From an uncultured Flavobacteriaceae bacterium (GTDB lineage Bacteria; Bacteroidota; Bacteroidia; Flavobacteriales; Flavobacteriaceae), in NCBI GenBank assembly GCA_938010765.1, contig CALLVX010000094.1, positions 1 through 46,176 of the forward strand: a stretch of 46,176 nucleotides of DNA, given 5' to 3'. Below, in pieces: positions 1,072-26,088 of this stretch. Below the pieces are notes generated by a model. That model was given only the letters and a program-made list of their open reading frames with translations. It searched no databases and was not told the origin of the DNA. The translations under genes and the position numbers were made by a program. Position 1 is the first letter of the stretch. Each line of letters begins with the position of its first letter.

Positions 1072-1947
1072 TTACTCCTCTAACAAAATTTCAATTACCA
1101 CCTCTATATCCTCCCAAACCTTTTGCTGGTGCAGTTCTCCGCATACGGCATTAAGCCGATCGTAACCATTTTGCCAGTTAAAAAAATTCATATCGGGTAT
1201 GGCGCCGGTCAGCACGATTTTGCCTTCCTCTAGTGCAAGGACGAACTCATGTTGTTGTTCAATACCGTTCATTGTAAAGGTGATCTGCGCGCTTGTGGCT
1301 GTATATTCATCTACCTTACCCTTAATTTCAGAAGTGAAAAATGAAAAGAAAGCCCCTACGTTTTGGTTTCTTTGATCACTACCCAAGTTCACAGATTTTG
1401 TATTGATGGTAACAATAGCATCTTTTAATAAATCCTCAGGGTTTTCGAAATTTTCGTTTAAATTATAGGTGATTTCGTCAAAAGCACCACTTACAGGGGC
1501 CCTTGCTGAAAAATCAGGATATTTATAAGCGGTCCAATTCACGGTAATTCTGCTGGCAACGGAATCGGGTATTTCTTGTGCTCTCTTTGAATCTAAAATA
1601 TCCCGAAATTGTTGAAAAAGTTGTTTTTCCTCTTCTGTTAATTGGGGAGACCCAGCCGGTGGCATTGCCGTGTTTTCATTTGTATTGATACGCGCTAACA
1701 TTTGAGAGAGGGATGACTTCGTCTTTTCATAACTGTCATACTTATTGGTTCCTTCAAGATGGTACACATGACAAGAAATGCATTTGCTGTCAATAACCGT
1801 TTTAAGGCTTGTATCATACAATAATTTAGCCGCTGAATCATTTGTGGGATACAAACTCTCTGAACTATCGGAGGTACACCCAACAATGGTAAAAAATAAA
1901 AGGCCAACAACCGCGAGCTTGCTTTTTCCTAGTTTATTAAATAGCAT
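1072..1947 (-). CDS. Lipoprotein: cytochrome c-like domain fused to a YceI-like domain (cassette 1)
   Basis: 291 residues. The N-terminal signal ends in a lipobox (TIVGC, Cys about residue 24), predicting a lipid-anchored envelope protein. Residues about 45-120 form a cytochrome c-like module: one haem-attachment motif CISCH (about 56-60) and a later AMPPAG segment that could supply the axial Met. Residues about 130-290 resemble a YceI-like beta-barrel (alternating beta pattern, segments such as VNLGSDQRNQNVGAFFSFF), so one protein appears to join an electron carrier to a lipid/quinone-binding fold. It is last in the cassette: its start overlaps the end of the OB-fold gene by 19 bases. The YceI assignment rests on pattern and neighbours and is less certain than the haem motif. 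Confidence 0.75.
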   Translation of the reverse strand: MLFNKLGKSKLAVVGLLFFTIVGCTSDSSESLYPTNDSAAKLLYDTSLKTVIDSKCISCHVYHLEGTNKYDSYEKTKSSLSQMLARINTNENTAMPPAGSPQLTEEEKQLFQQFRDILDSKRAQEIPDSVASRITVNWTAYKYPDFSARAPVSGAFDEITYNLNENFENPEDLLKDAIVTINTKSVNLGSDQRNQNVGAFFSFFTSEIKGKVDEYTATSAQITFTMNGIEQQHEFVLALEEGKIVLTGAIPDMNFFNWQNGYDRLNAVCGELHQQKVWEDIEVVIEILLEE

Positions 1948-2330
1948 CTTTTAAAGCTTATTTCATTAAATAATTCATCGACCCCGCTATAAATACCTTT
2001 TATTTTAACTTTTTCCCCTTCGGTTATTTGGCCATACTGCTGTTTTTCAAGTTCACACTTAATTCCATTATCCAGAATTACGATAATATTTTCGTCTCCT
2101 TTTTCGACCATAGTGATTTCGCCGGAAACTTCTATGACCTCGTCTAAAAGCGCAAGTAACATTTCGGGAGTTTTCCCATTTTTTTCGATAAGGCCATGAG
2201 CGGTAGTGTATAGTTCAGGTTCGATTTTAAGCACTTCTTGGTGTGGTTTATTATACAAATACATACAATAGGTCGCTATGGAAAAAAACAAAGCGCCGAT
2301 GAGTAAGAATATCTTATTTTTCATCTTCAT
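1929..2330 (-). CDS. OB-fold (tRNA_anti-like) envelope protein (cassette 1)
   Basis: 133 residues with one N-terminal hydrophobic segment (about 5-25: signal or membrane anchor). The rest matches the Bacteroidota tRNA_anti-like OB-fold family: EVSGEITMVEK, a VILDNGIKCEL strand, and the late GEKVKIKGIYSGVDELF signature. Members are small periplasmic or anchored proteins of unknown ligand; despite the family name nothing here suggests tRNA binding. It lies 2 bases after the YceI gene and overlaps the cytochrome gene, so translation is probably coupled. Paralogues occur at 21318-21728 and 24710-25117. Confidence 0.8.
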   Translation of the reverse strand: MKMKNKIFLLIGALFFSIATYCMYLYNKPHQEVLKIEPELYTTAHGLIEKNGKTPEMLLALLDEVIEVSGEITMVEKGDENIIVILDNGIKCELEKQQYGQITEGEKVKIKGIYSGVDELFNEISFKRCYLIN

Positions 2331-2332
2331 AA

Positions 2333-2890
2333 TTATTTTGTTGGGTTGTTACTGTAGCTTGTGGCTACGCTGACCAATACTTCTTTAGATATTTTATCTC
2401 TTACCAAAGAGGGTACGTCAATTTTATAGTCTTCTAAATTCAATTTAAATTTCGAAACAAATGTGATAGAGCCGTCTTCGATTACGGTAATGTCGGCCTT
2501 AACGACCAGTGGCAGTGTTACCCCATGAAAATCCATTTCCCCCTTTATCGTAACATCTTTATATGTTTCGGGTTTTTTGAGATCTATGTCTTCTTCGAAA
2601 GTGCCTAAAAATTTGGCCGCAGGGTATTTATCGGAATGCACATATTTTTCATTAAAATGTTCTTCCATTAAGGCTTTTTCAAATTTAAAGGACTTTAGCA
2701 ACGCATTAAATGCAATTGTTTTTTTCTCTACTAAAAATAGACTTGCGGTTTGGTCGTTCTCCGCATAGATTTTTTCCAAACCCGTTTCTGAAAGGAAGGT
2801 TACATTACCCGTTCTTGTTTTCAATTTTTCCTGCGAATACCCTGTATAGAAAAGAGCCAATGTGATGCTTAGTGCACATAAATTTTTCAT
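2333..2890 (-). CDS. YceI-family periplasmic protein (cassette 1)
   Basis: 185 residues with a cleavable signal (about 1-19, ending GYSQ). The mature part carries YceI hallmarks: NVTFLSET near the N-terminus, the central FKFEKALMEEHFNEKYVHS block with nearby YPAAKFLGTF, then DVTIKGEMDFHGVT and a C-terminal strand set. YceI proteins form a lipocalin-like barrel that binds isoprenoid or amphipathic ligands in the periplasm. The EHFNE(K/S/N)Y block is shared with the two paralogues in this window (20768-21316, 25114-25677). It is the second gene of a DUF5777-YceI-OB-cytochrome operon. The ligand cannot be inferred. Confidence 0.88.
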   Translation of the reverse strand: MKNLCALSITLALFYTGYSQEKLKTRTGNVTFLSETGLEKIYAENDQTASLFLVEKKTIAFNALLKSFKFEKALMEEHFNEKYVHSDKYPAAKFLGTFEEDIDLKKPETYKDVTIKGEMDFHGVTLPLVVKADITVIEDGSITFVSKFKLNLEDYKIDVPSLVRDKISKEVLVSVATSYSNNPTK

Positions 2891-2936
2891 GAAATGATTG
2901 TTTTATAGTTCTTACTAAAATTGTTTATTAAATATG

Positions 2937-3830
2937 TTACAGACTAAATTCTCTTAATATGCTAAAGCCGATGCTAATTTCCCTGCCAAAAAAATCGCCG
3001 TTTTGGTTTACAGCAAATTTTCCGGGATGAAGGGCAAACGCATTTGTAAAATAAAGCTGAAATACATGGCCACCGGTTTCTATATCAAAACCGACAGAGA
3101 GTGCGTTTCCTTTAAATTTACTTGCGTCAAAGGTTGGGATGGTATGGTAGTATTCTAAATTCACCGAAGATGAACGAGAAAACATATACCGCCCACCAAG
3201 ACCTAGCGAAAATATATCGTTTGGCTGGGCTTCGGCATCCGTTAAGTTCCTATGTACCCAAGTAGGAGAAATTTGTAATGACAGTTTATCGGAAAATTTT
3301 CTACTTATTAAAACTTGATTTATATAATCTAATCTTCCAACAAAATTTTTATCCCGTGCTTCCGGTATGTAATCCCTAGATTTATAATCTATACCCCCAT
3401 AATAAGAAAGCGAAAGAGGAAAAGGGTTTTCTCCCGTCTTTTGTCTCAGTAGGCTCCCTTTTACAGTGCCCGAGTATGTTTGATCTGGTTTGTTAGACCT
3501 TGCCAGCCCTACTTGTAAGTTGTTATTTATACCATACTCAAAACTGATATGCATATTATTGAGATTATCAAGGCCAAAAAAATTATCAATTCCATTGATC
3601 TTGCTGAACACATGCGAAATCCTAAAATGCAGTTGATTTTCCTTGGCCCGCTCTGTAGACTGCCCTAAGATTATTCGAGTTGATTTGAAAGTAGCGATTA
3701 CCTCCGAACTTCCTTTGGTCGTTAGCTCATCTAACTCATCAAAAAGATTTTCATCGGTATCGCTGGGCGGCTTTTCTTGCCCAAATATCAATAAGGGTAT
3801 TATAAATAAGGAGAGTACTATCTGTTTCAT
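2937..3830 (-). CDS. DUF5777-family beta-barrel protein (cassette 1)
   Basis: About 297 residues from the Met at 3830, chosen because the signal peptide (MKQIVLSLFIIPLLIFGQ) begins there; an in-frame Met at 3863 would add 11 polar residues and is possible. The mature protein has the DUF5777 pattern: a FKSTRIILGQSTE opening, HFRISHVF, YGINNNLQVGLARS, QVLISRKFSDKLSLQISPTW, and a late ETGGHVFQLYFTNA strand. Alternating beta strands predict an outer-membrane barrel. First gene of cassette 1, preceded by a distinctive promoter (3882-3972). It resembles the barrel at 23855-24709 more than that at 19861-20778: only the first two share FFGLD and ETGGHVFQL. Confidence 0.82.
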   Translation of the reverse strand: MKQIVLSLFIIPLLIFGQEKPPSDTDENLFDELDELTTKGSSEVIATFKSTRIILGQSTERAKENQLHFRISHVFSKINGIDNFFGLDNLNNMHISFEYGINNNLQVGLARSNKPDQTYSGTVKGSLLRQKTGENPFPLSLSYYGGIDYKSRDYIPEARDKNFVGRLDYINQVLISRKFSDKLSLQISPTWVHRNLTDAEAQPNDIFSLGLGGRYMFSRSSSVNLEYYHTIPTFDASKFKGNALSVGFDIETGGHVFQLYFTNAFALHPGKFAVNQNGDFFGREISIGFSILREFSL

Positions 3831-3881
3831 TTGCTTTGCTTGGTTTGTTTTAAGGTTGCGCATTCACTTTTCAGCATTACC

Positions 3882-7127: not shown

Positions 7128-8585
7128 CTAGCAAGCCTTTGCATATTTACCAATAAGATTATTGATTACTAGATTTGCTTCATCAAGGGTTCCTACGGCT
7201 TCGATATAAGAATCTGGTCTTACTAAAATAACCTGACCCTTATAGTGTTCGCTTGCTGTCCAAAATCCGTTTTGCGGGTCATTTGAGTGAATCTGTAGGA
7301 GGTTTATATAACTTGGTAGCTCCAAATCTATTTTTTTATCACTGAAATAAAGTAGCGTGAACTTGGTATAATCAAGAAGCGTGTAAAGTCGGTTCTTCTC
7401 TTTGCCTTTATTCACTATAAGATCATAAACTCTTGTTCCGGCTAAACCATCGTTACTATAGCGGATTCCCATACCTGTAATATTTCCGGCTTTCTTCTCC
7501 ACAATCTTAACGTAGTCTTTCGCATGCGTGCCTTCGTCTGAATACTTGGTAGAGCGTACAAGTTCACCCGAACTCTGAATTACACTTAGCGCAACTGGCT
7601 TTCTTTCACTTTCATAGGTATTGAGTAAACTTTTATCCGCACCATGATTTTTGATCATGCTTAATTTCCAAATTAGGTTGAACGAATCTGCCAGCCCCGT
7701 ATTTAATCCTTGTCCACCATTTACCGAGTGAATATGACATGCATCCCCAGCAAGAATTACTCGATCTTGGATTAGGTATTTTTCTGCAACGGATTCTTTT
7801 ACCGTAAATTGAGAAAACCAAACAAGTTCTTTTATTTTAACCGTATGTGGGGCCGTTGCGATGTTTACTTTTTCCATAGCCTCTTCCATAGAAAAATCTT
7901 TGCGATCCATTCTGACATAGAATCTATCTATATTTCCTTCTCTAGGAATCCAGGCAACATCCGATGTTTCTGCTTGGAAAACAATAATTTCCGGAACCCT
8001 TACAAAATCGGTCTCTAGTACCGCATCGATTACTGCCCATACAATTTGAGGGCGTGTAATTTCAAACGGTATTTCGAAGCGATTTCGAACAAAAGAACGG
8101 GAACCATCTGAACCAATCAGATAATCAGACTTTACAACATCTCCATTAGAAAGCGTACTGATACACCCCTCATTGGTCACTCGAATATCTTCCAAGGTTG
8201 TTTGTCTTAGTACGGAAGCATTTATTTTATGAAGCTTTTCGTCTAAGAGTTTTTCTACAAATGATTGTCCCAGCATCAAAAAATGTTTATGAAAACAACC
8301 TTCAAGTTCATCCCACCAATGCGATTGACGAGAGACAAACTTTCCATTTTCCCATATAGAACTTGTATTGCAGGGTAAGCCCTGAGGGTACAGTTCTTTG
8401 AATAGATTGGCAACCTCGAGCAATTGTAATGTTCTGCCATTAAGAGCATCGGCCCTTCCTACTTCCAAGGGTCCCTCAGATTTATCTATAATTACGGTTT
8501 TCAGTCCTGAAAGTGCTGCTAAGTATGCACAAGCTAGGCCAACAGGTCCTGCTCCTACAATAAAAATATCGGTTTCTTTTGTCAT
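7128..8585 (-). CDS. FAD-dependent aromatic monooxygenase (PHBH fold)
   Basis: 485 residues. FAD-binding Rossmann motif VGAGPVG (about 10-16), central GSDGSRSFVRN (DG motif), and the second FAD motif ILAGDACHIHSVNGGQGLNT (about 273-292). This is the UbiH/PheA/TfdB hydroxylase group, which adds one oxygen to an aromatic ring using NAD(P)H. Its ATG overlaps the stop of the oxygenase gene (TAATG), so the genes are translationally coupled and it should act on the isonitrile pathway product, for example hydroxylating a tyrosine- or tryptophan-derived vinyl isonitrile. In the Pseudomonas pvc cluster the hydroxylase PvcC belongs to a different flavin family, so this would be a non-homologous stand-in. 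Confidence 0.85.
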   Translation of the reverse strand: MTKETDIFIVGAGPVGLACAYLAALSGLKTVIIDKSEGPLEVGRADALNGRTLQLLEVANLFKELYPQGLPCNTSSIWENGKFVSRQSHWWDELEGCFHKHFLMLGQSFVEKLLDEKLHKINASVLRQTTLEDIRVTNEGCISTLSNGDVVKSDYLIGSDGSRSFVRNRFEIPFEITRPQIVWAVIDAVLETDFVRVPEIIVFQAETSDVAWIPREGNIDRFYVRMDRKDFSMEEAMEKVNIATAPHTVKIKELVWFSQFTVKESVAEKYLIQDRVILAGDACHIHSVNGGQGLNTGLADSFNLIWKLSMIKNHGADKSLLNTYESERKPVALSVIQSSGELVRSTKYSDEGTHAKDYVKIVEKKAGNITGMGIRYSNDGLAGTRVYDLIVNKGKEKNRLYTLLDYTKFTLLYFSDKKIDLELPSYINLLQIHSNDPQNGFWTASEHYKGQVILVRPDSYIEAVGTLDEANLVINNLIGKYAKAC

Positions 8586-9421
8586 TATTTAGTATATATA
8601 AGGTGTGGATTTTCAAGTGGGGTTTGCCCTAGTACCTGTACGCGTCTAAGATGTCTTGGAGCGCCTTTGGTAAATGGCTCGCGGCCATGTAACAAGGTGT
8701 GATTATCAGACAGCACAATATCTCCTGTTTCCCAACGGTGCGTGTATAGAAATTCAGGAGCGTACAGCGTTTGATTCAGCGTTTGAATAAAATCTTCGGT
8801 TTCTTGATTTTCAAGACCTTCAACTTCAAAACCGGGGTGATTAATAAAAGATTCGTCGCTATGGGTAGGGGGCTCACAATAGCGAATCACCGAGTAATCT
8901 CTTTCCGGGTGCTTCGTTAACAGGGGCGCTTTGGTTTGGCTATCGTAAAATTCCATTTTACGAGAATAAACACAGTTTACTTTACTCCATGTTTCACGAA
9001 CCTCTTCTGACATCTGTTCTAGAATCATTTTGGTATTGGTAAAAGTGGTCCCTCCACCATTATCCGTGCCAGGAGAACTTACACAATGAAATACTTGCGT
9101 CTCGGGAACTTGCTCTCTGTACATCCCATCCCAGTGAAGAGGGATATAGGTATTGTCAAAAATGTGGTCTTCGGGATTGTCTTGCACCACAAGCTCTAGT
9201 ACTTTTCCAAAAGGCCACATGCAAATTTCTCCGAAGGCTTCGCAATAGTTAGCGAAATCTTCGGCGCAATCAAAGCTTCGAAAGCCTCTTAAGGTGATTA
9301 AATGTTCTTGGGACAGTACCGTTTTTAGTTCATTTATATCCAAATCCTGAACATCTTCCTTTCCGAAAATTGGTTCGATCAATAGACCAAAAGGGTTTAA
9401 CTTAGTTGTTTTAAAATTCAT
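8585..9421 (-). CDS. Fe(II)/2-oxoglutarate oxygenase, TauD/TfdA family (PvcB/IsnB-like)
   Basis: 278 residues. Iron ligands are visible: HWD (His96, Asp98) and a distal His in LLHGREPF (about His245); Arg259/260 in RHLRRVQ would bind 2-oxoglutarate. N-terminal LITLRGFRSF is typical of the family. Next to an isonitrile synthase this is almost certainly the PvcB/IsnB partner that decarboxylates or desaturates the isonitrile amino acid to the vinyl isonitrile; PvcB and IsnB outcomes cannot be told apart by eye. It lies 103 bases after the synthase, with a strong stem-loop between, and overlaps the monooxygenase start. Confidence 0.87.
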   Translation of the reverse strand: MNFKTTKLNPFGLLIEPIFGKEDVQDLDINELKTVLSQEHLITLRGFRSFDCAEDFANYCEAFGEICMWPFGKVLELVVQDNPEDHIFDNTYIPLHWDGMYREQVPETQVFHCVSSPGTDNGGGTTFTNTKMILEQMSEEVRETWSKVNCVYSRKMEFYDSQTKAPLLTKHPERDYSVIRYCEPPTHSDESFINHPGFEVEGLENQETEDFIQTLNQTLYAPEFLYTHRWETGDIVLSDNHTLLHGREPFTKGAPRHLRRVQVLGQTPLENPHLIYTK

Positions 9422-9457
9422 TTCGATTTCTTGTTTTGTAAATTGATCGTCTAATTT

Positions 9458-9485
9458 AGACTGGTGCGATTATCGGCACCAGTCT
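9458..9485. other. Stem-loop between isonitrile synthase and oxygenase genes
   Basis: Perfect 10-bp inverted repeat AGACTGGTGC / GCACCAGTCT with an 8-base loop. On the coding (minus) strand it is preceded by A-rich sequence and followed by AAATTAGA with no T-run, so it does not look like a terminator of the operon. On the plus strand it is followed by ACTTTTTT and could terminate antisense transcription. Likely an mRNA-processing or stability element. Confidence 0.6.
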
Positions 9486-9524
9486 ACTTTTTTCTATAAA
9501 TCTGTTGTCTTTAGTTCCTAGAAA

Positions 9525-10562
9525 TTATGCGGCCGGCCTGTTTGAACTTTCCTCGATTAACTCGTAGTGACATGGGCGTCCTTTTTCGTCTAAGATGAGT
9601 TTTGAATTCAACTTTTGAACTTCTGCATGCTTCATAAGAATATATCCGTTGCCAGTATTCACTGTTACCGCATGCCAAGGAGTCAGCCATGCTTCAACCC
9701 CTAGAAGTTGTATCCCAATTTTTTTAGCTCCACAGGCCTGTGGATGAATGGATAGACGAATTGCTTCAGGAAATTTTTCAGCGATCAAATCGGTCCAAGC
9801 ATTACTTCTTATAATTGCCTTATACGCTTTTTCTTTGCATTCTTTTTGAATAGAACTCCTAGATCTAGTTTGCCCGGGAAATGAAAGGTCTTCTACAAGA
9901 AACCGAGTAAGGCCACAATACATAGTGGTCATCTCTTTTTCTTCTGGGGTAGCTGAATCCTGCCCTCCTTTTTTAACTCGCTCTTTTAGCGTATCAATAT
10001 CCTGCCCATATTTTTCGATAAGTACTTCCCTAGCCTGATCAAAATCATTGTTGACAACGTAATCATCGAGGTTAAAAGTGGAAAGTGCTGTGAGGTCTGC
10101 ATCTTCAATAAACTGATCAATTTCAACTTGATACGCCGTTACGTTGTTTTCCGAAATTCCCACAACATCGCTAAAGACTCTCCCATCTGAACATATGATC
10201 AACTCTGCACCGGGTTCATAAATCTTTTGAATTCGTTCGCAAAGGTCATTTAAGAATACAAGGGACTTCTTTTCGCCCATATCGGGAAGATGCCCTAAAA
10301 CTTTTGCCGGATTCGGAGACTTCCCTGGAAAAGCCGGTAAGACAAATCTAATTTTTTTGTTTTGCATAATTGCTTCAGTGATCTTAGCTATGTGTGGTTT
10401 ATGACAGCTTGTACATGCAGCTGAATCACAAATATGTTCAGATTTCATCATACGCCGAAATTGCATGACTTCAGTCAAAATAAGCCTGGCTAGACTCGTA
10501 ATTTTATCAAAATAATGAGGTGACAGATAAACTTTACTTAATTCTTCATTTTTTTTAATCAT
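9525..10562 (-). CDS. Isonitrile (isocyanide) synthase, Dit1/PvcA family
   Basis: 345 residues with the Dit1/PvcA pattern: KKIRFVLPAFPGKSPNPAKVLGHLPDMGEK (written here as family blocks FVLPAFPGKSPNP and LGHLPDMGE), ELIICSDGRVFSDVVG, ARLxIHPQ-like RLSIHPQACGAKK, and TPWHAVTVN near the C-terminus. PvcA/IsnA enzymes turn the amino group of Tyr or Trp into an isonitrile with ribulose-5-phosphate as the carbon source. N-terminal Cys residues (CDSAACTSCH, about 45-54) are notable. First gene of a three-gene operon with an oxygenase and an FAD monooxygenase. The substrate amino acid cannot be read from the sequence. Confidence in family is high. Confidence 0.9.
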   Translation of the reverse strand: MIKKNEELSKVYLSPHYFDKITSLARLILTEVMQFRRMMKSEHICDSAACTSCHKPHIAKITEAIMQNKKIRFVLPAFPGKSPNPAKVLGHLPDMGEKKSLVFLNDLCERIQKIYEPGAELIICSDGRVFSDVVGISENNVTAYQVEIDQFIEDADLTALSTFNLDDYVVNNDFDQAREVLIEKYGQDIDTLKERVKKGGQDSATPEEKEMTTMYCGLTRFLVEDLSFPGQTRSRSSIQKECKEKAYKAIIRSNAWTDLIAEKFPEAIRLSIHPQACGAKKIGIQLLGVEAWLTPWHAVTVNTGNGYILMKHAEVQKLNSKLILDEKGRPCHYELIEESSNRPAA

Positions 10563-16097: not shown

Positions 16098-16874
16098 TTA
16101 TTTTGAAAGCGCAAATGAAATGCCATACGTAAGCAACCAATCGTCTTGTTTTACTTCTACCGCCGTGATATCTTCATGGGAATATATAAGTCTTGCCTGT
16201 AAACTGATCGCAGTATTTAAACGATACCCAAGCCCCATGTAAGCAAGAAAACGTTGATTGCCCTGGGCCGATATCGAAAGCTGATCAATGAATTCATAAT
16301 TTAGTTTTAAGGAAGTCCCCATCGTATGTTCGCCATATATGCGAATGGTGGGACGTACAATTCTGAAGGTCGTTTTGGGCATATCGTTGTAGATCACCAC
16401 ACTGGTGTATTTTGAAAAATCGCAGATGACAGCTGTCGAGATCTTTAACAGATGCTTAGATTCTATAACAGGCACCCAGGTGACTCCTACCCCATTTTGC
16501 AGCCGTCTTTTTATGCTTAGCCGAAAATTGGTTTCGTATAGGGTTAGATAAAACGGATACAGTTTTTGAAACGGTTTGTACTAAATGTAAGCATTCGCGG
16601 TGTAGTTATGATCAATTTTTCGTTTATTGACTTCCCCATACCTAAATTGATGTGCCGTTTTAAATACCCATTTTTTGTTTGGAAAACTGTACAGGGCTTC
16701 CAGGTTGTTTGTCGAAAGGATTCTTTCTACGTTTCCAAAGGCGAAATTCCCCGAAGTGCGTAGCTGTATGCTCCAGGATAAGGTATCGGTTTCGGTTATT
16801 TGTGCTTCTCCTGCAAAAAAAGGCAACCATATCAACATTGAACACAGCACCAAAACCGATTTTTTCCTTACCAT
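16098..16874 (-). pseudogene. DUF481-type outer-membrane barrel, interrupted by an in-frame TAG
   Basis: One reading frame gives about 258 residues, interrupted after 97 codons by TAG at 16583-16581. Before it: a signal peptide (VLVLCSMLIWLPFFAGEAQ) and WSIQLRTSGNFAFGNVERI..ALYSFPNKKW; after it, in the same frame: YKPFQKLYPFYLTLYETNFR, then VGVTWVPV and strands to FALSK. Together this is the DUF481 salt-tolerance-barrel pattern. A single base change would restore the frame. Its start overlaps the stop of the MBL/cyclase gene by 7 bases, so it was the last gene of that operon. An internal Met at 16475 cannot give an exported product because the signal is lost. Confidence 0.75.
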
Positions 16875-18483: not shown

Positions 18484-18954
18484 TTAATCTTCTATGTAGG
18501 GACCGCCAACTTCACCCCAGCCCCATTTGGGCATCGGTTCATCGGGAGTCATTTCAATTTCTTCGAGCTTTGAATTCAAGACCGCCAACCTTGTTCCCCA
18601 CTCAATGTAGGCAACAAAGGCCGATCGAAACTCCGGATCATCGGGAAGGTCAAGTTCATCGGCCGTTTCAATAAGTAGATAAACCCATTGTTTTCTGTGG
18701 GTTTCATTTAGGTGTTTTGACAAGTGTTTTTGAATCATTTTAAAATGGGTACCACCTTCTTCGGTGTACATTTTAGGACCACCAAAAACCTCTGCTATAA
18801 AGTGCGCCACATGCAATTGATGATCGGCAGACATGTGTTTAAATATGGGTTCTAATAGCGTATCCTTTAAAACCTTGTCATAAAATTTTGAGATGAGCGC
18901 TTCAAAAACGGGCATACCGCCTGCCCATTCGTATAAAGTGGGTGCTTTCTTCAT
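18484..18954 (-). CDS. Group II-type truncated haemoglobin
   Basis: 156 residues. LYEWAGGMPVFEALISKFYDKVLKD opens the 2-over-2 globin fold (quoted as family blocks YEWAGG and FEALISKFY); HFIAEVFGGPKMYTE is followed by HFKMIQKHL (proximal-His region) and HRKQWVYLLIETADELDLP. The family binds O2, NO or H2O2 in the cytoplasm. It is first in the operon with the MBL/cyclase fusion, divergent from an HxlR regulator 144 bases away. Regulation by that HxlR protein in response to a redox or electrophile signal is plausible but inferred. The C-terminal tail (MPKWGWGEVGGPYIED) is longer than in short globins. Confidence 0.86.
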   Translation of the reverse strand: MKKAPTLYEWAGGMPVFEALISKFYDKVLKDTLLEPIFKHMSADHQLHVAHFIAEVFGGPKMYTEEGGTHFKMIQKHLSKHLNETHRKQWVYLLIETADELDLPDDPEFRSAFVAYIEWGTRLAVLNSKLEEIEMTPDEPMPKWGWGEVGGPYIED

Positions 18955-19098: not shown

Positions 19099-19464
19099 AT
19101 GTTAAAGAACAATGAGAACGTCGTAATTCAATTAAATGGCAAAACATACTTTTGTCCTGTAGAGGTTACCATGGATATCATTGGAGGCAAATGGACCGCC
19201 CCCATATTGTGGTACCTCATTGAAAATACCCGGCGATACAGTGAGTTAAAAAGGCTCCTGGTCACTATTTCCGAAAGAATGCTCATCAAAGAATTGAAAG
19301 CACTTGAAAAACACGGTCTCATCGAACGGAAAGCATATCCGGTGGTACCGCCCAAGGTGGAATATTCTTTATCGGAGGCCGGTAAATCGCTGATTCCCTT
19401 GGTACAACTCATTTCCCGTTGGGGAGAAGAATTCTCCAAGGAACATGGTAAATATGTGAAGTAA
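19099..19464 (+). CDS. HxlR-family transcriptional regulator
   Basis: 121 residues. Typical HxlR winged helix: the CPVEVTMDIIGGKWTAPILW block (Cys near residue 19), RRYSELKRLLVTISERMLIKEL recognition region, LEKHGLIERKAYPVVPPKVEYSLSE wing (quoted in parts: LIERKAYP and VEYSLSEAG). The conserved Cys is the redox/electrophile sensor in relatives such as HypR and QorR. Divergent from the haemoglobin operon, the usual layout for a local repressor or activator. Confidence 0.9.
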   Translation: MLKNNENVVIQLNGKTYFCPVEVTMDIIGGKWTAPILWYLIENTRRYSELKRLLVTISERMLIKELKALEKHGLIERKAYPVVPPKVEYSLSEAGKSLIPLVQLISRWGEEFSKEHGKYVK

Positions 19465-19860: not shown

Positions 19861-20778
19861 TCACTTGCTGCCGCGCGACTTTCGTTTTTTAAGTTTGTTT
19901 TTCAAATGAAAAACATAGGTGGCATTAAAGCCAAAATTGAGATTGGGGTTTCGAAAATTAAAGTTGTTCCTAGTTTGTGCAATAAAGGCATCTTCCACCA
20001 TATTTACGGCATTGGTCAGCATAAATTGCAGCATAATATCCCCCAGTTCCCAATTGGCACCAATGGCAAAGGTATCAAAGGTCTCGAACGATTCGATCGG
20101 GTTAAAGGTATGATAGTACTCCGATACCAAGCTTAAATGCCCCCCAAGCTTGTAGCGCGCTCCCAACCCTACCGCAAAGAAGTTTTTAGGGTCATCCTCG
20201 GCCAATGCCAAGGTTTTATGTATATAGGTGGGTGAAACTTGTAAGGAGAAGTCTTTTGACACCTTCTTTGACAATAATAGTTGCGAAGTAAAGGCGGCCC
20301 TCTCTGAAAAGTCGTCTGCAATAGCTTCACTTGCTATGGGGCTGCTGTTATAACTCATATTCTGAAAAAGCGTCATGCTAAACGGGCGTCCCTTTTCTCC
20401 GGCATGTTGTAGCATTCGATACTTCAGATGTGCATCAAAAAGACCATCAAAGGTGGTTGCCCCGGCACCCAAGGTGAGCTTATCTGTAATACCGTATTCA
20501 AGGGCTATGCGGCTGCTCATCCTATCTACCACAAAGCTTTGGCTTCTTTCGGCCGGCGTATTCCAAAATCGATTCGCAACAAACAGTTCTAAAATTCCCT
20601 TGCCCCGAACTTCAGTGGAGTGCCCTACAGTGATTCGCGTCATCTTAAATGTCGCCGGTATAAACGGCACTTCATTTTGCTCTTCAGATTCTAAAATTCC
20701 CAATAGGTCTTGTGAAAATGAGGAATGCACCGTGGTCAGCAATACGAATGCCAACGTAAAAATCGTCTTAGTCTTCAT
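19861..20778 (-). CDS. DUF5777-family beta-barrel protein (cassette 2)
   Basis: About 305 residues from the Met at 20778 (signal peptide MKTKTIFTLAFVLLTTVHSSFSQ, about 1-22; an in-frame Met at 20793 is less likely). The mature part follows the DUF5777 pattern: FKMTRITVGHSTEVRGKG, ALEYGITDKLTLGAG, SQLLLSKKVSKDFSLQVSPT, VGLGARYKLGGHLSLVSEYYH. Predicted outer-membrane barrel. It is the most diverged of the three paralogues (no FFGLD, no ETGGHVFQL) and ends in a Lys/Arg-rich tail (LKKRKSRGSK). Last gene of the OB-YceI-DUF5777 operon; its start overlaps the YceI end by 11 bases. This cassette has no cytochrome. Confidence 0.8.
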   Translation of the reverse strand: MKTKTIFTLAFVLLTTVHSSFSQDLLGILESEEQNEVPFIPATFKMTRITVGHSTEVRGKGILELFVANRFWNTPAERSQSFVVDRMSSRIALEYGITDKLTLGAGATTFDGLFDAHLKYRMLQHAGEKGRPFSMTLFQNMSYNSSPIASEAIADDFSERAAFTSQLLLSKKVSKDFSLQVSPTYIHKTLALAEDDPKNFFAVGLGARYKLGGHLSLVSEYYHTFNPIESFETFDTFAIGANWELGDIMLQFMLTNAVNMVEDAFIAQTRNNFNFRNPNLNFGFNATYVFHLKNKLKKRKSRGSK

Positions 20779-21316
20779 AGGGCTCGTATTCAAATCTAAA
20801 ATCTATTGAAATGCTCTTGGCTATGTTTCCGGCGAGTAAGGGCGGAATGTTGATATCGTAGTCTTTTACCAGTGTTTCAAAATTACCAGAAACTACGTAT
20901 CCATTCGAATCATTGGTTATTTTCACCTTAATTTCCAACTGCTTTGATACGCCGTGCATGGTAAAAAGTCCTTTTGCCATACGGGTCTGTTCTCCCTGGG
21001 CCGCAGGATCAAAATCAACAAGCACCCCTTCAAAAACCGCTTTCGGATAAATGTCAGACTCTATATAACTCTCGTTGAAATGCTCTCTCATCAATGCCTT
21101 TTCAAAAATAAAGGCATTCATAAGCATGCTTACGGCAATTTCGCCTTTAGATAGGTCGATCACACTGAGTACTTGGTTGTTTTCGGCCTTGATATCTTCT
21201 ACCGATGTATGCGAAAAAAAAGACACCTTCCCCTGACGGGCAATCACCTTCTCGTTCGAATCAGCATCCGAAATACTTAAAAAAGCTATTAAAAAAACAG
21301 CTAATATTCTTACCAT
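20768..21316 (-). CDS. YceI-family periplasmic protein (cassette 2)
   Basis: 182 residues with a short signal (VRILAVFLIAFLSISDADS). Contains VSFFSHTSVEDIKAENNQ, the FIFEKALMREHFNESYIES block, YPKAVFEGVLVDFDP and FTMHGVSKQLEIKVKI, all shared with YceI proteins in cassettes 1 and 3. Lipocalin-like periplasmic ligand carrier. It starts 1 base after the OB-fold gene and overlaps the barrel gene, so the three are coupled. Confidence 0.87.
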   Translation of the reverse strand: MVRILAVFLIAFLSISDADSNEKVIARQGKVSFFSHTSVEDIKAENNQVLSVIDLSKGEIAVSMLMNAFIFEKALMREHFNESYIESDIYPKAVFEGVLVDFDPAAQGEQTRMAKGLFTMHGVSKQLEIKVKITNDSNGYVVSGNFETLVKDYDINIPPLLAGNIAKSISIDFRFEYEPYED

Positions 21317-21317: not shown

Positions 21318-21728
21318 CTAATCGGTCTTGATCACTACACAATTCAACATAATAACGTCTTTTAAAATCCCCTTTAAAAGCCCTTTTACTAAAATCGAAT
21401 CTCCGCTTTTTACGGCTTTTGTTGTGTTTATTTGGTTGGTATTCATATCACATATCACATAGGTCTCGCCTACTGCATTTCCCTTTAGCAAAATGGTATA
21501 TCGGTCGTTCACATTGTTAATTTCATGAACAGTCCCCTTTACCGCAATGACAGGTTCGCCATCAATTGTCTTGCTTGCACTGGATTCCGAAATCAATTGC
21601 TCCACTGTATATACCTTCGTTGCCGGCACCGCTGTAAGATCACCATTTAATGGATCATTACAAGCTAAAAAGCACAGCATCGCAATCGTAAAAACCAGTG
21701 CATAGGAAAATCTGGCGCTCCTTCTCAT
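21318..21728 (-). CDS. OB-fold (tRNA_anti-like) lipoprotein (cassette 2)
   Basis: 136 residues. Signal with lipobox CFLAC (Cys about 23), so it is lipid-anchored, unlike the membrane-anchored paralogues. The mature domain keeps the OB pattern: VEQLISES, VIAVKGTVHEINNVND, TILLKGN, YVICDMN, KSGDSILVKGLLKGILKDVIMLNCVVI. Here it is the first gene of the operon, whereas OB is third in cassettes 1 and 3. No AGGGAA or TAATAAGTGG box is seen in the 117 bases upstream, so this cassette is probably regulated differently. Confidence 0.78.
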   Translation of the reverse strand: MRRSARFSYALVFTIAMLCFLACNDPLNGDLTAVPATKVYTVEQLISESSASKTIDGEPVIAVKGTVHEINNVNDRYTILLKGNAVGETYVICDMNTNQINTTKAVKSGDSILVKGLLKGILKDVIMLNCVVIKTD

Positions 21729-21821: not shown

Positions 21822-21845
21822 ATTATTTTATTGAGAAACAGCAAA

Positions 21846-23384
21846 TTAATCACTGATCGAAAAAGTTCCCGTCATACTCCCATGAAATTCGCAATTGTAA
21901 AAAAGCGTATCGGGTGCATCGGCAGGAACTGTAAAGCTAATTGTGCCGGTCGAAGCGCCATTATTTGCTACACCCTCGTCAAAGGCATTTCCGGTACCTG
22001 TTCCCTGTACCGATTTAATGATAAAAGGATGTCCCGGGGTATTCACAACAAATTCATAGGTGTTACCTCTTCGCAGATTAAAGTTTGGGTTTTCATCACC
22101 TGCAAAGCCTTTCCCACCGAAAACATAGGAAACGGCACCGTTGTTACCAACATCAAAAGAAGTGGTCTCCGCTGCAGCTACAATTCGAATTCTACCGGTC
22201 ATAGAACCGTGAAACTCACAGTTGTAAAACAAGACATCGGGCGCATCTTCGGGTACGGTAAAAACCAATGTCCCACTCGATGCCCCATTATTGGTGACCC
22301 CATCATCAAAGGCATCTCCTGTTCCTGTACCCTGTACCGATTTTATAATAAAAGGGTGCCCTGGTGTGTCAATTACAAATTCATAGGTGCTGCCCCTTGT
22401 CAATTCAAGTGCCGGATTTTCCAAGCTGTTAAAATCAAACAGATAGGCCGAAGCGCCAACATTTGAAACGGCGAATGTTTTTTCAACAATTGGCGCGGTA
22501 TCTTCTGGTTCGGGCGCATTTTCAGTATCGGGATTCAGAATGGGCCATACACCGGCTACCGGGAATCCTACCCCAAAATTGTCTCCCCTGTTCTCATCGC
22601 CACCAAATGTATATAGCGGCCACCCTTTGTAGGTTAATTGTGATTCCCCAAAAATAGCGATCGCCCCAAAATCATCCTTATTTAAAATACTGGGTATATT
22701 TTGTAATTCCGTATGGAAAATAGGCCACACCCCATTATTTGAAAAATCTTCGTTCGTAAAATTATTGGTCGCGCTTTTATCATTAATGAAATGATACAGG
22801 GTGTTCCCATTCGTATCGGTCATATACACCGTCTCTTCGTCGCCCGCTTCGAACGCACTATTAAGATTCGTTTCGTTCCCGTCAGAATCCCTACCTACAA
22901 GCTGCGCTTTTGCAACCATTACCGAATAGTCTGGTTTGGCTACAAACCAAACACCGCCCGCCGCATCGCCATTGATCTGGCCCGCCTCGGCATCGCTAGA
23001 AAAGAGGTACAAGGGCCATCCCTTATAAGCCAGCTGTTCGCCCCCATCGGTTCTGGTTATGGTACTGAAGTCGTTTGCATCCAGGCCATCATCAAAACTC
23101 AATTCACTTGGATTAAAAGCGGGCCAAGTTGTAATACAACCATCTACGCAATTAGAATCTCCCTTACTGTCGGGAGCAAAAAAATACAGGCTAAACCCTT
23201 CTGCATTGGTAAGCACTGATCCAAAGGTGGCATCAGTGGCCAACCTCACCGAATTCTGAACATCTACAGGATCATCGGTTCCCTCCTCCTCGGGTACCGG
23301 TTGTGGGTCATTACCATAACTATCATCTGAACTACAACTGATCGCAAAGAAGGCGACCATGACTACTAAAAATACTTTTTTCAT
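21846..23384 (-). CDS. Lipoprotein with two PF03640 repeats and two cupredoxin domains
   Basis: 512 residues. Lipobox ISC (about Cys17) and an acidic linker. Residues about 45-280 hold two copies of the 'secreted repeat of unknown function' (PF03640/COG4315): GFSLYFFAPD..CVDGCITTWPAF..YKGWPLYLF, then a second with NTLYHFIND..GVWPIFHTE..YKGWPLYTF. Residues about 298-400 and 406-512 are two near-identical cupredoxin-like domains, each with PGHPF and YNCEFHGSM, giving the His, Cys, His and Met of a type-1 copper site. This predicts an extracytoplasmic copper electron carrier. It is a single gene between cassettes 2 and 3, with an upstream AGGGAA repeat matching that of the cytochrome operon, so redox partnership with those proteins is likely. 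Confidence 0.85.
   Translation of the reverse strand: MKKVFLVVMVAFFAISCSSDDSYGNDPQPVPEEEGTDDPVDVQNSVRLATDATFGSVLTNAEGFSLYFFAPDSKGDSNCVDGCITTWPAFNPSELSFDDGLDANDFSTITRTDGGEQLAYKGWPLYLFSSDAEAGQINGDAAGGVWFVAKPDYSVMVAKAQLVGRDSDGNETNLNSAFEAGDEETVYMTDTNGNTLYHFINDKSATNNFTNEDFSNNGVWPIFHTELQNIPSILNKDDFGAIAIFGESQLTYKGWPLYTFGGDENRGDNFGVGFPVAGVWPILNPDTENAPEPEDTAPIVEKTFAVSNVGASAYLFDFNSLENPALELTRGSTYEFVIDTPGHPFIIKSVQGTGTGDAFDDGVTNNGASSGTLVFTVPEDAPDVLFYNCEFHGSMTGRIRIVAAAETTSFDVGNNGAVSYVFGGKGFAGDENPNFNLRRGNTYEFVVNTPGHPFIIKSVQGTGTGNAFDEGVANNGASTGTISFTVPADAPDTLFYNCEFHGSMTGTFSISD
21850..22475 (-). repeat. Tandem duplication of the cupredoxin-coding segment
   Basis: Two consecutive segments of about 310 bases (about 21850-22160 and 22165-22475) encode nearly the same domain. 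The GHPFIIKSVQGTGTG and FYNCEFHGSMTG stretches are identical and synonymous differences are present, so the duplication is recent but not brand new. Confidence 0.75.
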
Positions 23385-23470: not shown

Positions 23471-23496
23471 AGGGAATATTCGGCTTTAAAAGGGAA
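23471..23496 (-). promoter_or_regulatory. AGGGAA direct repeats, 20-bp period (upstream of cupredoxin gene)
   Basis: AGGGAA at 23471-23476 and 23491-23496 (TTCCCT on the coding strand), inside GTGAAAGGGAA...GGCTTTAAAAGGGAAT. It starts 87 bp upstream of the cupredoxin ATG. The same double box, with the same period and almost the same distance, precedes the cytochrome c operon. A pair of direct repeats about two helical turns apart is what LytTR regulators bind. Confidence 0.6.
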
Positions 23497-23544
23497 TCGA
23501 CTTTCGGAAAACCGCCCCAATCGCAACACCGGGGGTTGAAAGAA

Positions 23545-23569
23545 AAAGGCCTTCAAACCGAAGGCCTTT
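23545..23569 (-). terminator. Terminator of cassette 3
   Basis: Perfect 10-bp stem AAAGGCCTTC / GAAGGCCTTT with a 5-base loop and a T-run on the minus strand (TTTTTCTTTC), 15 bases after the HMA gene stop. Confidence 0.85.
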
Positions 23570-23583
23570 AAAAACCACCTAAC

Positions 23584-23844
23584 TTAACACAAACACACTT
23601 TCGTTTTTAGGAGCATATCCCGATTAATTCGTTCCCCCGTTTCAGGATATCCCATCTCGGTCAAGGCGTTGAGTACATCAGACAGTTCATTGGCCCTTAA
23701 AAAATTAAAAACGACTAACGACTCTTGCGGATATAGCTGCACATTAGAGACATCCCTTATTTTTGTCAACTTCTTTTGTATGACACTTTTGCAGCTTTCG
23801 CAAAAGTTGTTTTGAACCTGAATTCTTGCAATTTGATGTTTCAT
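23584..23844 (-). CDS. Small HMA-like metal-binding protein
   Basis: 86 residues from the Met at 23844 (the longer frame overlaps the barrel gene and looks non-coding). An HMA-like beta-alpha-beta fold: IARIQVQNNFCESCKSVIQK with CxxC at 15-18, and a second half NALTEMGYPETG. The protein ends in a CxC (Cys84, Cys86), which could add a metal ligand. No signal peptide, so it is probably cytoplasmic. It lies 10 bases after the DUF5777 gene as the last cistron of cassette 3. A metallochaperone or metal sensor role is inferred, for example copper handling tied to the cupredoxin and cytochrome proteins. Confidence 0.75.
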   Translation of the reverse strand: MKHQIARIQVQNNFCESCKSVIQKKLTKIRDVSNVQLYPQESLVVFNFLRANELSDVLNALTEMGYPETGERINRDMLLKTKVCLC

Positions 23845-23854
23845 TTGTATCGTT

Positions 23855-24709
23855 TTAGTTGAAAACTCTAGAAAGATTAAAGCCAAAGAAGAAATCACCA
23901 CTGCCCCAGTCACCGGTTCCCTGTCCTAAAAAGCCATTCGTATTCATTGGCTGGGCATTGGTAAAATGCAACTGAAAAACATGGCCACCGGTTTCAATAT
24001 CGATCCCCACCGAAAGGGGATTCTTAAATGGTGAACTTGATGCCCTATTCATATGAAGACCATAATCAAAGTTGATCGAAAACCTTTTGGTCAACTTATG
24101 TCTTCCTCCAAATCCCAGTACGTATTGAGAATTTTCCTGTTCGGCTACCGACACTAGGTTGTCATGAAAAAAGGTGGGCATCAATTGTAGTGAAAAATTC
24201 TTATTGAATCTTTTTGAAATTAACAACTGTACCGTATACCCCAGCCGGTTTTCAAAGCTTAGGCCCGGTAAGACATCATCATCCAAAGCGGTATTCAACA
24301 GTATGTTGTTCGAACTCACGATTGTAAAAGGAAAGCCATTCGCCTTTTCTCTTACCAATCGTACCTTCAAGGATGATTCATAGATCTTTTGAAACGAGCT
24401 TCTAGAAAGACCGATATTGATTCCGTCTGAAATCGCATACAGAAAGTTCAACCGCGTAACGGCCTGATCCAATCCGAAAAAGTCTTCGATACCTGTTTTT
24501 ACTGAACCAAACCGATGCGAAACCACGAAGTATAGTTCGCCTTTGGAGACCATTTTCGTAGATTCAAAGTTTACGATCTTCAATCCTTTGAACGCCGCAC
24601 TTTTGAAAGTGTTCGTTGGGACCGAATCAAAACCTGACAGCAAATCTTCTTGGGCATGCCCCACACTTATTACCAATAGGCACGCGATGAGTGATAGTTT
24701 TAGTTGCAT
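23855..24709 (-). CDS. DUF5777-family beta-barrel protein (cassette 3)
   Basis: 284 residues with signal peptide MQLKLSLIACLLVISVGHAQ. Mature part: FKGLKIVNFESTKMVSKGELYF, DFFGLDQAVTRLNFLYAISDG, VQLLISKRFNKNFSLQLMPT, LGFGGRHKLTKRFSINFDYG, and ETGGHVFQLHFTNAQPMNTNGFLGQG (quoted as ETGGHVFQLHFTNA). Predicted outer-membrane barrel of the DUF5777 family, ending in a Phe-Asn. It shares DFFGLD and ETGGHVFQL with cassette 1. It starts right after the OB gene stop, with no gap. Confidence 0.82.
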   Translation of the reverse strand: MQLKLSLIACLLVISVGHAQEDLLSGFDSVPTNTFKSAAFKGLKIVNFESTKMVSKGELYFVVSHRFGSVKTGIEDFFGLDQAVTRLNFLYAISDGINIGLSRSSFQKIYESSLKVRLVREKANGFPFTIVSSNNILLNTALDDDVLPGLSFENRLGYTVQLLISKRFNKNFSLQLMPTFFHDNLVSVAEQENSQYVLGFGGRHKLTKRFSINFDYGLHMNRASSSPFKNPLSVGIDIETGGHVFQLHFTNAQPMNTNGFLGQGTGDWGSGDFFFGFNLSRVFN

Positions 24710-25117
24710 TTAGTTTGTTTTAATGGTTGTTGCTTGATCTATTTTTACCGCTAGCAGCAGTTCATCGAAACCCACACATCTGCCTTTGATGTTTACATTT
24801 TCACCGATCGTGAGGCCTCGTTTCAAATCGTTCAAAAAATACACTTGAACCCGGTTTTCCAGGACGATCGTGTTGGTTCCGACCTCTGTAATTGCACCGT
24901 GGGTTTCTATCACCTTGTCTATGTATTTGTGCGCGGCGGTTTCTTGGTCATCGGCAAAATGAAATTGTAGTTCGTCGGCCGAAATCGCAAATGCCGTAGG
25001 CTCCTTGGCTATCTCCCGATGCACAGGATTAAATACCTTTTCATAGATGACAAAACCGGATAGAATTATTAAAACAGTGAGGCTGATCAGGGCGTATTTC
25101 ATATTCGTTTTACTCAT
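24710..25117 (-). CDS. OB-fold (tRNA_anti-like) membrane-anchored protein (cassette 3)
   Basis: 135 residues; the Met at 25102 is an alternative start. One hydrophobic N-terminal segment (YALISLTVLIILSGFVIY), then the OB domain: AHKYIDKVIETHGAITEVGT, TIVLENRVQVYF, and GENVNIKGRCVGFDELLLAVKI. Close in pattern to the cassette 1 copy. Its start overlaps the YceI end (ATGA), and it abuts the barrel gene. Confidence 0.8.
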   Translation of the reverse strand: MSKTNMKYALISLTVLIILSGFVIYEKVFNPVHREIAKEPTAFAISADELQFHFADDQETAAHKYIDKVIETHGAITEVGTNTIVLENRVQVYFLNDLKRGLTIGENVNIKGRCVGFDELLLAVKIDQATTIKTN

Positions 25118-25677
25118 GGTTTAAGATTAAAGTTTAGTGATACAAGTACTTCGCGGGCAATTTTGTTTTTCACGATGGATGGAATTTCAATGGCAAAGTC
25201 TGAAGGGGTGACGGTAAAGCCACCCTTCATAACAACGGCGCCATTCAATTTTTGTAAACTGACCATCGTTTTGACCTCCTTTTCTTTTCCATGCAATGCT
25301 AATTTCCCATCGACCGCAATTTCTACGGGTTCATCAGACAAATTGGAAAGGTCAAAATCGATCAGCATACCTCTGAATATCGCTTTGGGGTATGTTTCAG
25401 ATTCTATATAGTTTTCATTAAAATGTTCTTCCATCAGTGAATTTTCAAAACGGAAGCCGACCACTAATGCCAAGGAGGCAAATTCGCCGGTATCGGTATT
25501 GAGTACGGCAGTAACCGATTTGTTGACCGCTTCAACAGGTTCAAAAAGCTTTTCAGAAGCTTCGAATTTCAGGTAACCGGCCTTATCAACATAGTTATTT
25601 TGACCATAGAGGTGGGTGGCAAACACGCCGGTCATAAAAAGGATTGCCACCAATTGTACAGTTTTCATATTTTTCAT
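25114..25677 (-). CDS. YceI-family periplasmic protein (cassette 3)
   Basis: 187 residues with a signal peptide (about 1-25, ending LYGQ). YceI features: YLKFEASEKLFEPVEAVNKS, FRFENSLMEEHFNENYIES, YPKAIFRGMLIDFDL, LALHGKEKEVKTMV, then IEIPSIVKNKIAREVLVSLNF. The EHFNENYIES block is nearly identical to those of the other two copies. Second gene of the operon, 30 bases after the cytochrome c gene. Confidence 0.88.
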   Translation of the reverse strand: MKNMKTVQLVAILFMTGVFATHLYGQNNYVDKAGYLKFEASEKLFEPVEAVNKSVTAVLNTDTGEFASLALVVGFRFENSLMEEHFNENYIESETYPKAIFRGMLIDFDLSNLSDEPVEIAVDGKLALHGKEKEVKTMVSLQKLNGAVVMKGGFTVTPSDFAIEIPSIVKNKIAREVLVSLNFNLKP

Positions 25678-25707
25678 TTGTTCTAGTTTAATCGTTATGA
25701 ATGCAGT

Positions 25708-26088
25708 TTAATTTTCGGGTAGTCCGTTGTCGATCCATTCTTGAATTTGATCAATGGTGTTTTGCGGTAGTCTTCCAACAGGAGGCATAGCACCTGCCGC
25801 TCCATTCTGACGCGACATCGCACTCAGCATGTTATTGGCTCTGGCGCTCACCTGTTGGAAGCTAACCAGTGCGAACGGTGCTCCATTTCGCGGCGGGTCG
25901 TTATGGCAACCAACACAGTTGTTTTGAACAATTGCCCGTACGGTATTCTCATAGGTAATGCCATCGGTATCCCCTTCATCGGGACCCTGTTCCTGTTCGA
26001 TTTCGACCAGATCTGCTTCACTGTCATTTGTACAACTCCAAACACAAAAAGCGGATAGGAGAATCATAAGTAGTTTTGCTTTTTTCAT
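25708..26088 (-). CDS. Lipid-anchored c-type cytochrome (cassette 3)
   Basis: 126 residues. Lipobox VWSC (Cys about 19), an acidic linker, then one haem motif CVGCH (about 58-62) with ALVSFQQVSARANN and AMPPVGRLP (Met axial ligand candidate), ending QIQEWIDNGLPEN. A short class I-type cytochrome as seen in Bacteroidota envelope proteins. First gene of the five-gene operon cytochrome-YceI-OB-DUF5777-HMA, facing the divergent LytTR regulator across 215 bases. It is the stand-alone counterpart of the cytochrome half of the fusion at 1072-1947. Confidence 0.87.
   Translation of the reverse strand: MKKAKLLMILLSAFCVWSCTNDSEADLVEIEQEQGPDEGDTDGITYENTVRAIVQNNCVGCHNDPPRNGAPFALVSFQQVSARANNMLSAMSRQNGAAGAMPPVGRLPQNTIDQIQEWIDNGLPEN

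Follow-up and report, generated by a model that had tools for sequence, protein, structure and literature searches.

The stretch of DNA examined here, positions 1 to 46,176 of contig CALLVX010000094.1 (assembly GCA_938010765.1) from an uncultured Flavobacteriaceae bacterium and referred to below as the window, carries three sets of genes that each encode a DUF5777 outer-membrane barrel, a YceI lipocalin and an OB-fold protein. A preliminary description of the window had reported these sets, all on the minus strand and in permuted order, and we found them as described, namely barrel, YceI, OB and cytochrome at 1.1-3.9 kb (cassette 1), OB, YceI and barrel at 19.9-21.7 kb (cassette 2) and cytochrome, YceI, OB, barrel and HMA protein at 23.6-26.1 kb (cassette 3). 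The genes were also correctly said to overlap or abut, as neighbours inside each set either overlap or lie 0-46 bases apart, the HMA gene aside. The source genome, which is 86.9% complete, has three DUF5777 matches in total, all of them in this window.

The cassettes of the window

In cassette 1, the barrel gene (2937-3863; Pfam PF19089, E 1.8e-82) is accompanied by a YceI gene (2333-2890; PF04264, E 2.7e-12), a gene for a membrane-anchored OB protein (1929-2330) and a cytochrome gene (1072-1947). The OB protein matches the tRNA_anti-like family (PF12869) at E 0.0013, below the cut-off, and its closest relatives among the loci that we fetched, at 26-31% identity and 44-50 bits, are likewise OB proteins from other DUF5777 loci; the other two OB genes of the window exceed the cut-off of that profile. 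Cassette 2 consists of an OB-fold protein, a lipoprotein by eye (21318-21728; tRNA_anti-like, E 3.5e-12), a YceI lipocalin (20768-21316; PF04264, E 1.1e-11) and a barrel (19861-20793; PF19089, E 2.4e-72). Cassette 3 begins with a monohaem cytochrome c lipoprotein (25708-26088; haem motif CVGCH; Cytochrome_CBB3, E 1.8e-5, below the cut-off), which is followed by a YceI lipocalin (25114-25677; PF04264, E 8.6e-11), an anchored OB protein (24710-25117; tRNA_anti-like, E 6.6e-8) and a barrel (23855-24709; PF19089, E 1.5e-87).

One-haem cytochromes had been noted in two of the cassettes, and both are indeed monohaem, but that of cassette 1 (motif CISCH) also carries a C-terminal YceI domain, the fourth in the window, as identified by Pfam and profile searches. 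All three YceI genes exceed the PF04264 cut-off, and this domain does so narrowly, with E 5.8e-5 for the whole protein and 2.7e-5 for the C-terminal part alone, while our own cassette YceI profile fails to detect it. The N-terminal part matches Cytochrome_CBB3 at E 2.6e-4, below the cut-off, and the cassette cytochrome profile at E 5.5e-20 in a small database. A search of 296 genomes for this cytochrome-YceI fusion returned a full-length match for the window's own protein only; stand-alone relatives of its C-terminal domain exist, and four of the five scanned exceed the YceI cut-off.

Linkage and joint divergence across Bacteroidota

Of 296 genomes sampled from the phylum, 115 have a DUF5777 match, whereas 14 control genomes have none. 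Up to 19 kb was fetched around 134 DUF5777 matches, leaving out those below 150 bits and one at a contig end (G119:C180), and a further 80 loci were added from one scan, being the best 80 of at least 566 confirmed relatives, so that the loci are not independent. The 214 DUF5777 genes called by a simple script (L056, L086, L120, L179 and L230 are among the loci without a called one) reduced to 197 at 90% identity and to 179 with 3 kb on each side; as a distance control, the same profiles were applied to the zone 5-8 kb away in the 161 loci with longer flanks. Cassette members served as seeds for the profiles, so the counts lean towards them, and cupredoxin counts demanded the motif, since only 10 of 70 profile matches kept it, the others presumably being tails of the type IX secretion system.

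On this basis, YceI lies within 3 kb of DUF5777, on either strand, in 152/179 loci against 5/161 at 5-8 kb, and any one-electron carrier does so in 156/179 loci (three as fusions), again against 5/161, figures that led us to reject a chance neighbourhood. Within the same 3 kb we counted a cassette-type cytochrome with its haem motif in 133 of the 179 loci, an OB protein in 40, a Rieske protein in 21, a cupredoxin with its motif in nine, a dihaem cytochrome in six, EB_dh in five and a cytochrome-fused barrel in three. The commonest string of genes on the barrel's own strand is cytochrome-YceI-barrel (56/179), and the barrel stands alone there in 10/179 loci; as the 179 loci present 31 different strings of content and order, the permuted order seen in the window holds across the sample. 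The partners also diverge in step, with distances between barrels correlating with distances between their partners at r 0.76 for YceI (162 pairs), 0.59 for the cytochrome (147) and 0.79 for the OB protein (45), compared with maxima of 0.05, 0.07 and 0.25 in 200 label shuffles, genome kinship contributing to the r values.

The preliminary description had taken the trio of barrel, YceI and OB protein to form one machine, and had proposed counting their co-occurrence as a check. The linkage of YceI with DUF5777 in many gene orders, together with the joint divergence, supports the idea of a machine, but not quite with this membership: at 40/179 loci the OB protein was rejected as a core member and is optional, its place as the third core member falling to a one-electron carrier. 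Genome-wide counts agree on the standing of the OB protein, as PF12869 matches occur in 22 of 40 DUF5777-positive and two of 20 DUF5777-negative genomes, and a comparison of coordinates places 27 of the 30 matches in those 40 positive genomes no more than 3 kb from a DUF5777 match. The OB protein thus depends on DUF5777, and not the reverse, and is an optional partner largely confined to the module.

Two further searches gave little. A PHROGs scan of one barrel returned no match, and a link of DUF5777 to aerobic respiration was dropped: the 11 COX1-negative genomes all lack DUF5777, but COX1 is also present in 170 of the 181 genomes without DUF5777, so little follows.

Alternative carriers and natural fusions

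The third slot of the cassette is filled in more than one way. Rieske and cytochrome genes largely exclude one another, four loci having both, 17 the Rieske gene only and 129 the cytochrome only (Fisher p 2e-8, kinship ignored), and the Rieske gene stands before the barrel, after the barrel or before YceI depending on the locus. The lipid-anchor cysteine, the Cys-Cys-His of the haem site and a Met-Pro do not vary across the 25 cassette cytochromes chosen for comparison, and a lipobox pattern occurs in 131 of 172 cytochromes of a wider set.

In five loci, the cytochrome c is fused to the DUF5777 barrel itself: L164, L167, L168, L170 and, by tblastn, L171, where the fusion is cut at a contig end; two of the five are Rhodothermales. 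The haem motifs of these fusions (CTAAGCH, CAQAGCH, CTAVGCH and CTQAGCH) have the form CX4CH and are preceded by LFARS, IFARS or LFERS. The L170 fusion is preceded by genes for MbnP, a dihaem MbnH/MauG-type protein (below the MbnH cut-off and over that of CCP_MauG) and a molybdopterin oxidoreductase (L170:4864-7784). At L115, the neighbours of the barrel are NrfD, an EB_dh protein, a 4Fe-4S protein and two cytochromes, one multihaem and one small, and all or part of this set recurs, by cluster, length or eye, at L117, L121, L122, L124, L129, L131 and L138. Genes that by eye resemble NorC/NorB of nitric oxide reductase lie downstream of a DUF5777 gene without a called YceI at L122:16161-17907 and L129:11216-13007.

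We regard a redox function at the outer membrane as likely, because the third slot holds chemically different one-electron carriers, because two kinds of natural fusion exist (cytochrome c-YceI and cytochrome c-DUF5777) and because the barrel keeps redox neighbours even where YceI was not called. Of the redox, lipid-carrier and metal pathways that had been suggested for the window, it is therefore the redox guess that the carriers, their exchange and the fusions favour.

Structural features of the components

A model of the L170 fusion (mean predicted local distance difference test score (pLDDT) 84.7, predicted template modelling score (pTM) 0.69) shows a helical haem domain followed by a barrel, in which DSSP assigns 14 strand elements; reading three consecutive short ones (348-367) as one gives 12. 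Its best Foldseek hits are small outer-membrane channels, namely 4rl8, OmpG, FapF, NanC and KdgM, and a profile built from the fusion and related proteins found no solved chain by sequence. As an even number of strands should put both barrel ends in the periplasm, the haem domain is expected on the periplasmic side, an argument also made for Cyc2 in the excerpted text of PMC8406198.

For the YceI proteins, a profile of 30 cassette members matches the solved structures 1y0g, 5ixg, 5ixh and 1wub, to which a single cassette sequence alone found no match; an isoprenoid such as ubiquinone-8 is bound in most of the YceI structures that have been solved, according to an excerpt of PMC9113575. The OB protein of cassette 3 was modelled with a mean pLDDT of 91.3 as one N-terminal helix followed by short helices and six strands, and the best hit of this model is 3f1z (titled putative nucleic acid-binding lipoprotein), followed by OB proteins including RPA14. 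CcmE is only hit 29, and a CcmE-like haem chaperone role for the OB protein was set aside as no more than possible.

Inheritance of cassettes 2 and 3

The two cassettes are separated by a gene for a 512-aa protein (21846-23384, minus strand) with three Lipoprotein_15 stretches (PF03640, E 1.5e-37), which scores 142.9 bits against the SCO0930 model, under that model's cut-off of 275. Two stretches with Cys-His-Met motifs look cupredoxin-like by eye, with no Pfam copper-binding match reported, and the protein likely belongs to the redox module. On the other side of cassette 3, the divergent gene at 26304-27413 (plus strand) encodes a LytTR protein (E 6.2e-16) with a Cache-like sensor region, the Cache-type matches being below the cut-off; it is a probable regulator. 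Elsewhere in the sample, sigma-factor-like (by eye) and anti-sigma-like barrel genes stand ahead of some cassettes (for example, L037:5849-7186), with profile matches in 15/179 and 31/179 loci, respectively, and with the sigma profile also matching in 5/161 controls; their position suggests regulated expression.

A metagenome-assembled genome of Pricia sp. (L223) has both cassettes together with the 512-aa protein and the divergent regulator, the counterpart of the 512-aa protein being 58% identical and in the same place and the relative of the regulator being split over two open reading frames (ORFs). A recent tandem duplication of the two cassettes is unlikely, as each is closer to its own Pricia counterpart (YceI 73% and barrel 56% identical for cassette 2, 48% and 65% for cassette 3) than to that of the other cassette (28-36%). 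The best relatives of the cassette 2 genes mostly share a common set of other loci, as do those of the cassette 3 genes, and from these comparisons the two look to be old, separately inherited units; among the relatives of the cassette 1 genes, no common source locus was found.

The accessory HMA gene of cassette 3 (23584-23913, minus strand; PF00403, E 1.3e-5) encodes a metal-binding protein with a CESC motif, whose true start is probably the in-frame ATG near 23844, directly after the barrel gene, and not 23913. The corresponding gap in Pricia holds no gene, so that what looks to have been inherited as a unit is cassettes 2-3 with the 512-aa gene and the regulator, the HMA gene excluded.

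A candidate redox module of the outer membrane

The reading that we favour, which we hold tentatively and at a little short of an even chance, is that each cassette encodes one redox module of the outer membrane. The DUF5777 barrel, with about 12 predicted strands, would sit in the outer membrane, and a one-electron carrier would work at its periplasmic mouth, where docking is presumed, this carrier being in most cases a monohaem cytochrome c with a lipid anchor. The periplasmic YceI protein would carry an isoprenoid quinone as its putative cargo, exchange electrons with the carrier and so tie it to the quinone pool of the inner membrane, the quinone of this phylum being menaquinone; the exchange between YceI-bound quinone and carrier is likewise possible but slightly on the doubtful side. 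The anchored OB protein would be an optional partner.

Outward flow would be the likeliest direction, from quinol in YceI to cytochrome c, Rieske protein or cupredoxin and on to an oxidant, and it is favoured because the potentials of these three kinds of carrier usually lie above that of menaquinone; as a specific proposal, outward flow to an oxidant is nevertheless somewhat unlikely. The oxidant might be admitted by the barrel or arise in the membrane, the candidate substrates being lipid peroxyl radicals, by analogy with the BcnA-LcoA system described below, and oxidised metal ions, in view of the neighbours in some loci. Put more generally, Bacteroidota would have a one-haem outer-membrane conduit in which the mouth of DUF5777 takes any one-electron plug and is usually fed by a quinone-carrying YceI shuttle, a generalization that we think quite unlikely to hold in full.

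Several observations weigh against this reading. YceI is missing within 3 kb in 27/179 loci and a carrier in 23/179. No YceI was called at the four readable fusion loci (L164, L167, L168 and L170), the rest of whose genomes were not searched, nor at the eight loci of the NrfD-type group (L115, L117, L121, L122, L124, L129, L131 and L138). In the window itself, no carrier was called within 3 kb of the cassette 2 barrel on its own strand, and the nearest candidate, the 512-aa protein, is missed by our own carrier profile; the likeliest partner of this cassette is either that protein or the cytochrome of cassette 3. On the structural side, the count of about 12 strands depends on the merging of elements described above, and 14-strand OmpG is the second Foldseek hit; at a pTM of 0.69 the contact between haem and barrel is not readable from the L170 model; and two near-invariant DUF5777 histidines (98% of 191) seem to point towards the membrane, judging from the alternation along the strands. 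That face assignment also speaks against these histidines as a metal site in the pore, an idea that was dropped. Because the fusion loci and the NrfD-type group have no called YceI, YceI cannot be needed everywhere, and the barrel and carrier seem to form an inner core with YceI as a frequent, not universal, partner. The readable fusion loci have lowered our confidence in the YceI step and in the overall reading.

Should the module move electrons at the outer membrane, many Bacteroidota would have an uncharacterised envelope redox system, and a one-haem conduit, if real, would add a third design to those of Cyc2 and the multihaem Mtr conduits. The question of what YceI lipocalins do would then gain a system with nameable electron and membrane partners, each of them found in a natural fusion. 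A literature search, in which subscription papers were mostly outside coverage, returned no paper naming DUF5777 and no account of what DUF5777 does, of YceI paired with a Rieske protein or of a YceI system that has an outer-membrane barrel to itself. The combination of YceI with haem carriers is a known theme, and it is the version with its own outer-membrane barrel that we did not find described.

Comparison with known systems and alternative explanations

Three systems place YceI proteins beside haem proteins. In BcnA-LcoA of Burkholderia cenocepacia, a YceI protein is tied, and partly fused, to a haem protein in the envelope, but that partner is a membrane cytochrome b561, where the cassettes have a lipoprotein monohaem cytochrome c or a Rieske protein, and the excerpt of PMC9113575 mentions no barrel or OB protein. 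In Cbp2D/Cbp2E of Cellvibrio japonicus, a YceI-like X158 domain shares one chain with c domains of a single haem each; electron transfer has been proposed, and the isolated X183 c domain has a measured potential of +193 mV. Unlike the cassette proteins, these proteins are secreted, carry a carbohydrate-binding module and have a lytic polysaccharide monooxygenase as their proposed partner, with no barrel mentioned in the excerpt of PMC8981238. In Shewanella decolorationis, YceI has been proposed as a periplasmic electron mediator towards the outer membrane, although its donor there is the cytochrome b561 YceJ, as inferred from co-expression, and the excerpt of PMC8981235 mentions neither DUF5777 nor an OB protein.

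BcnA-LcoA is also the model for a different explanation, in which YceI-bound quinol quenches lipid peroxyl radicals of the outer membrane, the redox partner helps to recycle it and the barrel admits lipids or small molecules. Membrane lipid peroxidation is raised in mutants of BcnA (YceI family) and LcoA (cytochrome b561), and most alphaproteobacteria encode the two as a fusion (PMC9113575, from an excerpt), a pairing that the window repeats together with a YceI-haem fusion. No cytochrome b561 occurs among the window cassette proteins, however, a high-potential carrier is in general a poor donor to quinone, and such an antioxidant would by itself leave the cytochrome-fused barrel and the YceI-less fusion loci unexplained, so that we consider it unlikely. 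A pure traffic of lipids or quinones has in our estimate a small chance of being right; here YceI and the barrel would convey hydrophobic molecules, isoprenoids among them, to the outer membrane or across it, and the cytochrome would sense or modify this cargo. The best Foldseek hit of the L170 model is the COG4313 channel 4rl8, and one barrel weakly matches Phenol_MetA_deg below the cut-off, both of which we take to be channels for hydrophobic compounds; however, such traffic predicts neither the exchange of cytochrome for Rieske protein nor the cytochrome-barrel fusion, and though 4rl8, FapF, NanC and KdgM share the barrel fold, they are not known to have redox partners.

The fusions raise the prospect of oxidation in the manner of Cyc2, with ferrous iron, cuprous copper or sulfite entering the barrel and electrons passing through the cytochrome inward to oxidases. 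In Cyc2, as at L164, L167, L168 and L170, a single-haem cytochrome lies N-terminal to the barrel in one chain (PMC8406198, in excerpt), and these loci are free of called YceI; the cytochrome profile has FoxE as its best solved match (E 4.9e-8 over the whole sequence, no single stretch passing), and the MbnP, dihaem and molybdopterin-enzyme genes before the L170 fusion fit as well. The details differ: Cyc2 is described in that excerpt with 16 strands, a CXXCH motif and an upstream AXPXFAR[Q/K][T/Y], whereas the L170 model, from a relative of the window barrels, has 14 elements read as 12, the fusions have CX4CH, and their FAR stretch resembles part of the Cyc2 motif without its proline and spacing. 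In the window, moreover, cytochrome and barrel are separate genes, being fused in five other loci. Oxidation of this kind would leave YceI, common elsewhere, unexplained, and we hold it improbable; the named hosts among the relatives are also mostly known as ordinary heterotrophs. MtrCAB-type conduits likewise combine a barrel with an outer-membrane cytochrome, but with a multihaem cytochrome and a much larger barrel, where each window cytochrome has one haem motif and the barrel is small. Since these features fail, we file the module under neither Cyc2 nor the Mtr type, although the layout of the fusions works like that of Cyc2.

Finally, the barrel, HMA protein, OB protein and cytochromes might handle copper, iron or haem, with redox chemistry serving only to alter metal valence. 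The HMA gene of cassette 3 points this way, as do genes of FecR and TonB-receptor type that precede the L062 cassette, with genes of the same lengths at the Flavobacterium loci L218, L220 and L249, and PcoB appears as Foldseek hit 27 of the L170 model. However, among the genes of the window and the first 134 loci the HMA protein matched its own seed only, and the prospect of a metal or haem uptake system is slim. An RNA-Seq table on iron limitation lists a Riemerella YceI gene at 1.16 (PMC5429918, in part), a point that was dropped, the neighbours of this gene being unchecked. The preferred reading remains the redox module set out above.

Other genes of the window

Beside cassette 1 lies an isonitrile-type biosynthesis set (7128-10562, minus strand), comprising genes for DIT1_PvcA (9525-10562), a TauD-type oxygenase (8585-9421) and an FAD monooxygenase (7128-8585); isonitrile-type products can bind metals. 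Cassette 2 is adjoined by a bacterial globin gene (18484-18954, minus strand) and a divergent gene for an HxlR regulator (19099-19464, plus strand). Two short ORFs downstream of a lactamase-cyclase gene (16098-16874, minus strand) have no Pfam match and by eye are remnants of one protein. Further along, a 1772-aa protein (28585-33903, plus strand) combines LCAT-like alpha/beta hydrolase regions with a CHAT domain and a TPR-S match below the cut-off, and of two ORFs at 35979-36786 (minus strand) the one scanned (35979-36473) matches a DDE transposase, so that the pair is possibly a broken insertion element.

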